A DNA stretch of 64,000 bases from Pelagibacteraceae bacterium AG-325-E23 (GCA_003282945.1 QBYG01000005.1:1-64000), one strand, 5' to 3'. Positions 44,621-47,261 are shown, counted from the stretch's first letter. Made by a program: numbers and translations. Notes: a model not told the origin generated them from the letters alone.

Positions 44621-44710
44621 TGGCGGAGAGACTGGGATTCGAACCCAGGAAAGAGTTGCCCCTTTGTCGGTTTTCAAGACCGATGCTTTCAACCGCTCAG
44701 CCATCTCTCC
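44621..44710 (-). tRNA. tRNA-Ser (TGA)
   Basis: 90-nt type II tRNA: acceptor GGAGAGA paired with TCTCTCC, long variable arm, anticodon loop with TGA (44674-44676), TpsiC arm GGTTCGAATCC, discriminator G, encoded CCA. The part from the anticodon loop to the 5' end, plus the upstream promoter, is duplicated 2,507 bp away at 47179-47261, which marks it as the integration site of the island. Confidence 0.97.
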
Positions 44711-44754
44711 GTGAGCAAGGTTTTATAAGTATAATATTTAAATTCAACAAAAAA
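44672..44754. other. attL-like repeat: anticodon loop to 5' end of tRNA-Ser plus promoter
   Basis: Matches 47179-47261 at a constant offset of 2,507 bp. The first 42 nt (44672-44713) are identical, then one mismatch, then 11 identical nt; the remaining promoter part is about 70% identical by eye. This is the copy belonging to the intact tRNA gene. Confidence 0.8.
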
Positions 44755-44785
44755 ACAGAGCCTATATTTTAGGAAATTTTAACTT

Positions 44786-44807
44786 TGCTTATAGTTTGCT
44801 TATAGTT
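44786..44807. repeat. Tandem 11-mer TGCTTATAGTT x2, left copy
   Basis: Two perfect head-to-tail copies of TGCTTATAGTT, 73 nt inside the left tRNA core. The same 22 nt recur in the same orientation at 47042-47063. The pair frames the six small genes and lies just upstream of the first ATG (44823). Confidence 0.9.
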
Positions 44808-44822
44808 ATCCTATAAAATCAT

Positions 44823-45143
44823 ATGAATAAAAATTCTATTAAATTATTTTTTTTAATTCCAGCAATTTTATTGATTATTGCCCCATTGATATCTTTTCCT
44901 TATAGATTTTACACATTATTAAGAATCATAGTAACTTTAACATCGGCTGCAATAATTTATCAAAGTTATAAAATTAACAAAGGAATTAATGAACCCTCAA
45001 TAATTTTTCTGTTTATTTTGATTTTATATAATCCTTTAATTCCTATCTATCTAAGTAGAGAAGTGTGGCTACCTATAAATTTTGCAACCTCTGGAATTTA
45101 TTTATATACTCTTTTTAAAATAAAAAAAATTTTAAGCATTTAA
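44823..45143 (+). CDS. Small integral membrane protein (island gene 1, DUF6804-like)
   Basis: 106 aa with three or four hydrophobic helices. The pattern PAILLIIAPL...FYTLLRIIVTLTSAAI...LFILILYNPLIPIYLSREVWLPINFA resembles a widespread family of small membrane proteins of unknown function (I believe DUF6804, from memory). First gene of the island, starting 16 nt after the left 11-mer pair. The next gene begins 2 nt after its stop, so it heads an apparent operon. Confidence 0.75.
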   Translation: MNKNSIKLFFLIPAILLIIAPLISFPYRFYTLLRIIVTLTSAAIIYQSYKINKGINEPSIIFLFILILYNPLIPIYLSREVWLPINFATSGIYLYTLFKIKKILSI

Positions 45144-45145
45144 TT

Positions 45146-45421
45146 ATGCCTCTTGGTCCATCAGAAATTGAATATTATAAAAATATTGTAGCAGATCTTG
45201 ATGAAAAGGACTTAAAACCTACTCACGATATGTTAATGAATTCTTTAAAAGCTTGTAAGGCAGCAATGGATACAAGTAAAACATTAGATCAATTTGTTGA
45301 ACATATAGTTTGGATTGATTGTAGGCTTCAAGGTTATTCTTCAACAGGTATGAAGTCTTGGTGGTTTAGAACTAAAGCTAGAGCAAAGTATTATAAAGTT
45401 GGTGGATTGGGAGGGAAATAG
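45146..45421 (+). CDS. Small soluble protein of unknown function (island gene 2)
   Basis: 91 aa, no signal peptide or membrane helix. A mostly helical, charged first part (EIEYYKNIVADLDEKDL) is followed by two cysteines (SLKACKAAMD, VWIDCRLQGY) and a basic Trp-rich end (MKSWWFRTKARAKYY). I do not recognise the family. It is 2 nt after gene 1 and its stop abuts the ATG of gene 3. Confidence 0.7.
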   Translation: MPLGPSEIEYYKNIVADLDEKDLKPTHDMLMNSLKACKAAMDTSKTLDQFVEHIVWIDCRLQGYSSTGMKSWWFRTKARAKYYKVGGLGGK

Positions 45422-45583
45422 ATGATAAAATTAATAGTAACACTCGGTATATTATTGGGAATATGCGGTTTAGTTAAATTATTATTTGGAACAGGATGGC
45501 CATTATATATAGTTGGTGGGATTGGTATTTTTATCTGGTTATCAATAAATAATGATTTCTTTAACAGGATTGAAGGTGGTTAA
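45422..45583 (+). CDS. 53-aa two-helix membrane peptide (island gene 3)
   Basis: A short open frame from ATG 45422, directly after the stop of gene 2. It encodes two hydrophobic segments (about 3-20 and 25-41) with a Gly-rich turn (LFGTGWPLYIVGGIG) and a polar C-terminal tail. Family unknown. Start-to-stop spacing and the strong coding look (no overlap with anything else, next gene 8 nt later) support it as real. Confidence 0.65.
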   Translation: MIKLIVTLGILLGICGLVKLLFGTGWPLYIVGGIGIFIWLSINNDFFNRIEGG

Positions 45584-45591
45584 AATTTTAT

Positions 45592-46185
45592 ATGTTTAAT
45601 TGGTTTAAAAAGAAAAATAAGAACAAAGGTTTTACATCAACTAAAGATTTAGATTCTGAAAATCCTCTCTTAGATTTTTTACAACAAGAAACAACAAGAA
45701 TAATGGATGAAGCAGATGCAAAAAAAGCTCCAAATAAATTACAAAAGAATATTAGAAAAAAGTTTACAAATACATCTAAACAAAAAAGTAAAAAAAACTC
45801 AGATCCAAAAGCAAAATTTATAAACCATCTACAAAAGTCTCTAAAAACTGCGTTGGGAAAAAATTTAAATAAAAATCTAGATGTAAAAGATAAATATCTC
45901 CTTGGCTACATTTATGGATTATGTGATTACACAAATGACCTGCATAATTTAGATAATGAAATAAATGGGATAGGTACTTTTATGGAAATGCATATGTTTT
46001 TTTTCAAAAATGCTGATCCAGGTGATTTAGGAAGCATTATGGGCATGACTGGTAAATTAAGTTCTTCGGGTGATAAAACTTTTCTTAATGGTGCAATTGA
46101 TGGCGGAAGAGCTTTAGGAAATGAGAAAATTTATAGCGAACCTCCAAAAAAGGCTTACGGTAAATTAGTATCGCATTTGTCATAA
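45592..46185 (+). CDS. Lysine-rich cytoplasmic protein of unknown function (island gene 4)
   Basis: 197 aa. The first 75 residues are very basic and probably disordered (FNWFKKKNKNKGF, later NIRKKFTNTSKQKSKKN). The rest looks folded, with a helical segment FINHLQKSLKTALGKNL, KYLLGYIYGLCDYTNDLHNL and a Gly/Met-rich stretch PGDLGSIMGMTGKL. I recognise no domain. It follows gene 3 by 8 nt. Confidence 0.7.
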   Translation: MFNWFKKKNKNKGFTSTKDLDSENPLLDFLQQETTRIMDEADAKKAPNKLQKNIRKKFTNTSKQKSKKNSDPKAKFINHLQKSLKTALGKNLNKNLDVKDKYLLGYIYGLCDYTNDLHNLDNEINGIGTFMEMHMFFFKNADPGDLGSIMGMTGKLSSSGDKTFLNGAIDGGRALGNEKIYSEPPKKAYGKLVSHLS

Positions 46186-46227
46186 ATTTTACATAATTAA
46201 AACAATATTTATTTTTATAAATAATTT

Positions 46228-46416
46228 ATGGTTGATTATTTATTTTATCTGTGTGTTGATATTTTAGCTTGGTTGGCAAATGCCACAGGCACAACCTATG
46301 AATTGGTAAATATAATTATATTTGTAATTGGTTATCCAATTTTTGTGATTTTGTTATTATTAATAATTTATTTTCAAAGAAAAAAAATTAATAACTTAAG
46401 AAGTAATAAATTTTAA
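46228..46416 (+). CDS. Small single- or two-helix membrane protein (island gene 5)
   Basis: 62 aa with hydrophobic segments at about 3-17 and 26-50 and a basic tail (FQRKKINNLRSNKF). No family recognised. 42 nt after gene 4, on the same strand. Confidence 0.55.
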   Translation: MVDYLFYLCVDILAWLANATGTTYELVNIIIFVIGYPIFVILLLLIIYFQRKKINNLRSNKF

Positions 46417-46479
46417 AAAACTTTTTTTGAACAAAATTCAGTCCTAATAGAAACAACATGGTATGTATTAATATAATTA

Positions 46480-47037
46480 ATGCGTAGGATTGTAAATAGC
46501 TCCTTTCTTTTGTTAATTTTGTTAACATTGATCCATTTAAACGCATACGCTCATGAGGACTGGGAAGTAGCCAGATATGAAAATCAAAGCTACGCCATAG
46601 TATCTGGTGAAATCCAGTATTCAGATAAGTTTTCATTTGTTTTATCTCCCGATGAACAATGTGAAGAAGTTAGTTCAATGTTTTCTTTTTTTACTTGGAA
46701 CAATCCAGGAGATTTTGATCAATTGATTGGTAGAAGAGTCCCGATAAAGTTAAACGATATTGAAACAACTGCTGAGGTACTATCTACGTTTCCTTACAAA
46801 GAGGGAATAAAAGTTGTTTTCTATTTTGGAACATTTCCACTTAAGGAATATATTTATACCTTGTACAAATATTATGAGTCTGAAGGGATATATCAAATTA
46901 AAATTGTTGATGGTTTGAATTTTAATGCAAATAAGTATTTTGATATAACTGAAAACAATTGGAAGTTTAATAAACTTATCTCATCTGTATATGAGGCTTA
47001 TGAAATTTGCAAAAGTATTAACGACAAGAATATATAA
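46480..47037 (+). CDS. Exported protein of unknown function (island gene 6)
   Basis: 185 aa with a clear signal peptide (MRRIVNSSFLLLILLTLIHL, cleavage probably after AYA at residues 22-24), hence periplasmic or surface. The mature part has a DEQCEEV segment and a second Cys near the end (AYEICKSI) that could form a disulfide, and mainly beta-type sequence. No family recognised. Last gene of the island; its stop is 5 nt before the right 11-mer pair. Confidence 0.7.
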   Translation: MRRIVNSSFLLLILLTLIHLNAYAHEDWEVARYENQSYAIVSGEIQYSDKFSFVLSPDEQCEEVSSMFSFFTWNNPGDFDQLIGRRVPIKLNDIETTAEVLSTFPYKEGIKVVFYFGTFPLKEYIYTLYKYYESEGIYQIKIVDGLNFNANKYFDITENNWKFNKLISSVYEAYEICKSINDKNI

Positions 47038-47041
47038 TTCC

Positions 47042-47063
47042 TGCTTATAGTTTGCTTATAGTT
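47042..47063. repeat. Tandem 11-mer TGCTTATAGTT x2, right copy
   Basis: Identical to 44786-44807, same orientation, 116 nt inside the right tRNA copy. The unequal distances from the two cores (73 and 116 nt) are like those of arm-type sites on the two sides of a phage attachment site. Confidence 0.9.
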
Positions 47064-47064
47064 T

Positions 47065-47082
47065 TTAGCTTAGGCAAGCTAA
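47065..47082. other. Hairpin next to the right 11-mer pair
   Basis: TTAGCTT-AGGC-AAGCTAA: a 7-bp stem with a 4-nt loop, directly after the direct repeat. A T6 run lies some 10 nt further on, so it might end transcription of gene 6, but it is not a canonical terminator. It could also be part of a recombination site. Confidence 0.4.
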
Positions 47083-47178
47083 TAATAGTGTGTTTTTTGT
47101 AAAAGCTAAATTTAAGAAAGTTAGCAATGGCTTGATAAGTATGTGAAACGTCTTAGGTTGAGTAGGGGATGCCCAGTA

Positions 47179-47261
47179 TTTCAAGACCGATGCTTTCAAC
47201 CGCTCAGCCATCTCTCCGTGTGCAAGGTTTTATTATTATTAATATATATTTCAACAATAAA
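47179..47261 (-). pseudogene. Partial tRNA-Ser copy (attR-like): 5' half and promoter
   Basis: Duplicate of tRNA-Ser(TGA) from the anticodon loop to the 5' end (47217 to 47179 on the minus strand) with its upstream promoter region. There is no 3' half, variable arm or TpsiC arm beside it, so it cannot make a tRNA. The 115 nt between it and the right 11-mer pair are noncoding. It is what remains of the original tRNA 5' end after insertion. Confidence 0.85.

Follow-up and report, generated by a model that had tools for sequence, protein, structure and literature searches.

Cis-mobilizable elements (CIMEs) keep the attachment sites attL and attR, carry no integration or transfer genes, accrete in tandem with related elements, and are decay products of integrative and conjugative elements (ICEs) or integrative and mobilizable elements (IMEs) that are moved in cis (PMC5704250). 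Islands made by tRNA-targeting integrases of the lambda and P4 types, as collected by Islander, combine a tRNA gene (tDNA) with a displaced fragment of it, a crossover in the anticodon loop and an attP with arm sites (PMC4383910), while the tycheposons of Prochlorococcus are tRNA-linked cargo elements of streamlined ocean bacteria, 4-200 kb long and with a hallmark tyrosine recombinase on board (described in PMC10872708). Here we analyse a 2,507-bp insert (44672-47178, the window cassette) in the tRNA-Ser(UGA) gene of the SAR11 member Pelagibacteraceae bacterium AG-325-E23, on a 64-kb stretch of DNA (QBYG01000005.1:1-64000, the window), which, with others of its kind, resembles CIMEs in attachment sites, missing genes and tandem accretion, tRNA islands in the displaced fragment, a presumed anticodon-loop crossover and arm sites, and tycheposons in tRNA linkage, cargo and type of host. 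Judging from sequence comparisons, it is a member of a large family of small, recombinase-less mobile cassettes, which are probably moved by the integrase of another element, since they carry no enzyme and have kept all of its DNA signals. SAR11 bacteria rank among the ocean's most abundant cells, and their genomes are very compact.

The integration target, tRNA-Ser(UGA), is intact on the minus strand at 44621-44710 according to ARAGORN. An earlier annotation made from the window's letters alone (the sequence-only reading) had described it together with a partial copy at a 2,507-bp offset, and ARAGORN and a repeat search bear this out: the left attachment core (44672-44713), 42 nt running from position 38 of the anticodon loop to the tRNA 5' end and on into the promoter, recurs exactly at 47179-47220, followed by one mismatch and 11 further identical nucleotides, and no tRNA is called at the right copy. 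A chance origin of this repeat is excluded, because an exact 42-nt copy of half a tRNA lies far beyond chance and because other genomes show the two-copy layout at this locus as well. The core was searched in 397 genomes of the family and the loci were then fetched; in ten close relatives (RarD 89-98% identical in amino acids) the sdhE-tRNA-Ser-rarD site is empty. Downstream of the core, these relatives match the DNA to the right of the insert, from 47221 on, and not the inside of its left end, and so the left core copy is the incoming one, having brought a new tRNA 5' half and promoter, and the right copy is the displaced 5' half of the host tRNA. By the same comparison, the 3' half of the present tRNA-Ser(UGA) gene is host DNA. 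The element-type tRNA promoter with its P'-side spacer (GTTTTATAAGTATAAT...CAACAAAAAAAC, minus strand, 44714-44783) is common to the islands described below and unlike the host-type promoter, which now lies to the right of the insert. The crossover would fall in the 7-nt anticodon loop TTTCAAG within the left core; as a marker of its position the tRNA stem is uninformative, since the core variants agree in most islands. Replacement of a 5' half is indeed less usual, as the sequence-only reading had remarked: a 5' fragment is present in 159 of 3,919 Islander islands (PMC4383910).

Between the cores lie six small plus-strand open reading frames (ORFs) of 106, 91, 53, 197, 62 and 185 aa (genes 1 to 6, from the left). 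ORF and family searches agree with the earlier description on this point, with no recombinase among the six, and no transfer genes were found among them either. Other genomes hold other cargo at the same site. The core search yielded five further genomes with two cores per contig and different cargo between them, and a sequence model of the right end, searched in 399 genomes of the genus, detected this module in 26 (a few of the matches being weak or partial). Wherever the flanking genes are assembled, the islands occupy sdhE-tRNA-Ser-rarD with different cargo, and in two near relatives (G528 and G497 in our numbering of genomes) the site is taken by other islands. Single cassettes at tRNA-Ser(UGA) measure 251 bp in G503, 1.1-4.7 kb, and up to 6.8-7.5 kb; the largest island is a 14.7-kb composite in G662, and tandem arrays reach up to three islands per tRNA, G534 having three in a row. 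The 251-bp copy (L116:7282-7571) has no cargo and a single arm pair between two cores, a layout as would be expected from deletion between matched arm repeats. The case that would have spoken for a fixed locus, with the same six genes everywhere and no empty site, is thus excluded by the empty sites and by the alternative cargo (0.25-7.5 kb, with one composite of 14.7 kb) that more than 20 other SAR11 genomes carry between these repeats.

A second exact repeat, overlooked by the earlier annotation, is in our reading the key to the element. This 22-nt repeat, TGCTTATAGTTTGCTTATAGTT, stands at 44786-44807 and 47042-47063 and represents, as we interpret it, two 11-bp arm-type sites in tandem at either end: the left pair consists of two tandem units TTTGCTTATAG (44784-44805, plus strand), and the right pair of TGCTTATAGTT twice (47042-47063, plus strand), with the same 11-bp sequence as on the left. 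In mycobacteriophage attP sites, pairs of 11-bp arm-type sites likewise flank the core, and they vary with the N-terminal region of the integrase (PMC3203893). The tRNA-Ser islands carry such a tandem 11-bp pair on the inner side of both cores, 109-116 bp from the left one and 128-142 bp from the right one, and its unit varies by island, being GCTTATAG in the window cassette and, elsewhere, CGTTAGAG, CGTACAAG, GTCTCTAG, GTCTCAAG, ACTTCAAG and others. In an automatic test at tRNA-Ser(UGA), left and right arms agreed at 10.7 of 11 positions within an island as against 7.9 between islands (n=19, p<=1e-5), and an independent replicate at tRNA-Leu(UAA) gave 9.8 within and 7.1 between (n=17 islands, p=2e-5).

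To the right of the right arm pair lies a conserved accessory segment (47064-47178, plus strand), defined by an alignment of six islands whose right ends have a mean column identity of 86% over 130 columns despite unrelated cargo. It contains a site matching the consensus of integration host factor (IHF), CAATGGCTTGATA, at 47125-47137. Of 26 right ends, 16 have the same consensus 54 bp before the core and one more has it displaced by 1 bp, an enrichment that is partly due to shared ancestry and is supportive only; none of 21 left ends has it. On the left side, a conserved cargo-side flank, AGTTATCCTATAAAATC (44804-44823, plus strand), characterizes islands without an integrase, whether at tRNA-Ser, at tRNA-Leu or at a protein-gene site. 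The cargo-side motif AGTTNTCCTATAAAATCCTA was found in 74 of 300 genomes of the genus, at about 95 places compared to 3 for the reversed control, and the loci inspected were tRNA-Leu(UAA), tRNA-Ser(UGA) and, as the sequence suggests, an 81-codon gene at its 5' end. On the strength of this layout, we assign all the tRNA-Ser(UGA) islands a lambda-type attachment-site architecture. At the 5' end of the conserved 81-codon gene, motif-bearing left ends of cassettes, mostly with tandem arms, were seen in four loci, with the motif near 1500 in L198, L213 and L223 and near 1100 in L224.

Cargo has spread laterally: where shared, it is more alike between genomes than the DNA around it. Along 3,050 bp the islands of G192 and G707 are 99.4% identical, and their flanks reach 93-94%; the gene 6 region of the window genome and G537 is 90.8% identical, with flanks at 68-71%; for G230 and G534 the figures are 94.8% over a shared 833 bp and 75-78% in the flanks. 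Gene 6 is common to the window cassette and G537 up to a few bases from the right arm pair, genes 1 and 2 are common to the window cassette and G497 from the left end, and in both cases the arms differ. The arms therefore change independently of the adjoining cargo, yet stay matched from left to right, a matching that could be kept by selection through the integrase or by conversion between the ends.

No recombinase was detected in 42 cassettes scanned with two profiles, and the Pfam integrase matches in island-bearing genomes lie outside the islands. A candidate helper is present in G662 (single cell AG-439-C21), in which a 9-kb element occupies tRNA-Ser(UGA), with a core and then the 14.7-kb cargo island behind it. 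This element encodes a 558-aa tyrosine integrase (PHROG integrase match, E=6.5e-15), a DNA primase and a Holliday-junction nuclease-like gene; its arms, GTCTCAAG, are identical to those of the integrase-less islands of G675 and G503, and its core-side end resembles that of G304. By its predicted structure (pLDDT 73), the integrase matches the tyrosine recombinases Tn1549 Int, XerH, Cre and lambda Int, and a match of its N-terminal part to the arm-type-binding domains of P4-like integrases (E 0.02-0.04) weakly suggests that it carries such a fold. The helper may be of the tycheposon type, and relatives occur inside tRNA-Leu(UAA), in its 5' half, and next to tRNA-Ser(GCU). SAG-MED01 has one integrase element and two integrase-less islands lined up at one tRNA-Leu, with a separate arm type for each. 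One of these types is also that of the integrase element in G494. In the genomes searched, tRNA-Ser(UGA) holds more than 20 integrase-less islands for every integrase element.

The explanation we favour, with a probability of roughly 0.8, is that the window cassette is a non-autonomous integrative cassette, moved in trans by a helper integrase and addressed by its arm sites. It carries no recombinase and, as we read it, a complete lambda-type attachment site split over both ends, the parts being the core, an 11-bp arm pair on each side and the accessory segment with its IHF-type site. The tyrosine integrase of a co-resident or visiting helper would bind the paired arms through its N-terminal domain and excise or integrate the circle by a crossover within the tRNA-Ser(UGA) anticodon loop; the integrating element would restore the 5' half and promoter of the tRNA. 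The arm sequence would serve as an address, the same at both ends, with the arms of different cassettes matching different helpers; a helper for the window cassette's own arm type, and a route between cells, are presumed. In the excised circle, the junction would read from the right accessory segment with GTAGGGGATGCCCAGTATTTCAAGACC through CGTGAGCAAGGTTTTATAAGTATAAT to the left arm pair. The sequence-only reading had wavered between a unit moved in trans and a fixed remnant, and the conserved, intact end modules, the matched arms, cargo identity exceeding flank identity and the integrase element at the same site favour the former.

Several points weigh against movement in trans. No excision, circle or transfer was observed in this analysis; the tRNA-Ser(UGA) helper was met once, and its arm type is not the GCTTATAG of the window cassette; the model of its integrase is of moderate confidence, with a weak arm-domain match; IMG/VR yielded no helper phage in pattern scans or in one integrase scan; and many of the genomes are partial single-cell assemblies. 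The exact-pattern IMG/VR scans (42-nt core, left flank and right accessory segment) returned nothing or chance coding matches and no cassette end, and the integrase scan returned no relative of the G662 enzyme. Two further searches were discarded as evidence of a phage helper, namely a degenerate core scan, which matched only whole tRNA-Ser genes in phages, and blastn against phage records, whose matches were essentially tRNA genes.

Some copies are clearly decaying (the inner attachment site of G497, G674, and the 251-bp cargo-less scar of G503), and together with the tandem accretion in G534, G232 and G662 they would suit strict CIMEs, that is, remnants that lost their integrase, became fixed and spread by descent or by accidental co-mobilization in cis. 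We consider this unlikely, since the attachment modules are intact in most islands though the cargo is unrelated, the arm pairs are matched at both ends yet different between islands, the cargo was transferred more recently than the flanks, the cargo-side motif unites the integrase-less islands of three target sites and is missing from those helper elements that were inspected, and integrase-less islands so greatly outnumber integrase elements at tRNA-Ser(UGA). We give still less credence to a replacement island, in which homologous recombination through conserved ends or flanks exchanges the cargo, and the 11-bp pairs are not integrase arms but duplications that arose when cargo was inserted. 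The ends are conserved enough for such exchange, the G503 copy has the look of a deletion that removed the cargo between matched repeats, and cargo and arms do re-assort (window cassette with G537 and with G497), but the repeats keep to fixed distances from the core and to an 11-bp phase, which known attP sites share (PMC3203893), the integrase-bearing elements of tRNA-Leu and tRNA-Ser are arranged similarly, and the sequence outside the right end is that of the empty site, as site-specific integration predicts.

Least plausible of all is a resident recombinase, be it a chromosomal Xer-type enzyme or the 314-aa integrase of a restriction-modification island at tRNA-Met. The latter is the only tyrosine recombinase found in the window's own genome (82% complete); it belongs, though, to the tRNA-Met element, which has a different core, the 323-325-aa recombinases of other genomes lie outside the islands, and an Xer-type enzyme would not be expected to use lambda-type arm sites. 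The PF00589 match in the window's genome was rejected as Xer, being a phage-type integrase beside type I restriction genes. The island that carries it, 6.7 kb at tRNA-Met(CAT) (L243:4829-11622; G000:C3, ~83.8-90.6 kb), holds genes resembling hsdM, hsdS and hsdR of type I restriction and lies between the copies of a 54-nt direct repeat, which here too takes in the 5' part of the tRNA. Several SAR11 genomes (L001, L162-L164) have other integrases beside tRNA-Met or on contigs with tRNA-Gly, hinting at further docking sites.

Movement in trans may be part of a wider arrangement, to which we give slightly better than even odds: SAR11 populations would share a two-tier system, in which a few integrase elements serve many cassettes without mobility genes at several fixed docking sites, with the arm pair as an independently changing address code. 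The docking sites would be tRNA-Ser(UGA), tRNA-Leu(UAA) and the 5' end of the 81-codon gene, and the variable arm pair would decide which integrase moves which cassette.

As for the cargo of the window cassette, all on the plus strand, gene 1 (44823-45143) encodes a 106-aa membrane protein of the DUF6804 family (Pfam PF20619, E=5.4e-19) with homologues in the islands of G230 and G497, and gene 2 (45146-45421, 91 aa) has a homologue in the G497 island (86% aa). Genes 3 (45422-45583) and 5 (46228-46416) encode hydrophobic peptides of 53 and 62 aa, gene 4 (45592-46185) a 197-aa protein, and gene 6 (46480-47037) a 185-aa protein that is 93% identical in amino acids to the product of the gene in the corresponding position of the G537 island, an island that differs in other respects; the hydrophobic N-terminus of the gene 6 protein suggests that it is exported. 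Membrane or exported proteins predominate among the six products. Genes 2 to 6 match no family. A promoter scan of the window gave no excess over shuffled sequences.

Elsewhere, cassettes carry an MmeI-type IIG restriction enzyme (G304), type III restriction (G519), a PLD/SNF2 helicase with an Eco57I-type methylase (G534 and G466) and STAND NTPases (G534 and G537). The 3.2-kb cassette of G192 (L036:4158-6950), also present in G707, encodes a lipid kinase, a metallophosphoesterase and a glycosyltransferase, a set that seems to resemble the lipid-remodelling set known from phosphate-starved SAR11. A cassette at the tRNA-Leu(UAA) of SAG-MED01 (L184, ~1.3-6.8 kb) holds a row of type IV pilin-like genes with repeated MNRKAFTLIELLVVVAIIGILAAVG leaders, and the composite island of G662 (L119:4686-9473) two caspase-domain proteins, one with MORN repeats. 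Such cassettes would offer a concrete mechanism by which SAR11 exchange, in pieces of a few kb, the putative lipid-remodelling set and anti-phage genes (MmeI-type IIG and type III restriction, the PLD/SNF2 and Eco57I-type methylase pairs, and STAND NTPases). If true, an arm code matched at both ends would furthermore be a natural experiment on how the N-terminal domains of integrases read DNA, and its variability a source of mutually insulated integration tools. Islander rejects islands without an integrase or shorter than 2 kb and would for this reason miss the cassettes, and other finders requiring an integrase and at least 2 kb would overlook them as well (PMC4383910).

Set beside the described systems, the window cassette keeps attL and attR and lacks integration and transfer genes, as CIMEs do. 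As to an origin by decay and movement in cis, tandem arrays exist, single cassettes spread alone, and no ICE or IME relative was seen; in contrast to CIMEs, the cassettes form a family with intact, matched arms of many types, a shared cargo-side motif, sizes of 0.25-7.5 kb and evidence of independent spread. The window cassette also has the layout of a tDNA island, with an intact tDNA, a displaced fragment in the right order and orientation and the island between them, and, in line with what the configuration filter of PMC4383910 demands, its 5' fragment stands upstream of the tRNA gene; it differs from Islander islands in having no integrase gene on board and in that the fragment is a 5' half. 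At 2.5 kb and without a recombinase, it falls outside the tycheposons. Phage satellites such as phage-inducible chromosomal islands (PICIs), PICI-like elements (PLEs) and phage-inducible chromosomal minimalist islands (PICMIs) bring their own integrase or regulator and packaging interference genes, and none of the six proteins of the window cassette has a PHROG match at E<=0.01; on this count the cassette is no phage satellite. The Dehalococcoides islands without an integration module resemble the cassettes in standing in tandem at one small-RNA gene and in having a recombinase in some members only; the sections of PMC3146451 we draw on report a serine recombinase and the ssrA 3' end and describe no arm-site addressing. 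Finally, clusters of attC sites lacking integron integrases (CALINs) and miniature inverted-repeat transposable elements (MITEs) are, like the cassettes, non-autonomous and mobilized in trans by the enzyme of a related element (reviewed in PMC11389934). They use attC sites or transposon ends, whereas the cassettes use a split attP at a tRNA, whose direct-repeat arms and tRNA core differ from the hairpin architecture of integron attC sites, and the recognition sites of the cassettes, unlike those of CALINs and MITEs, vary between members and match within each.

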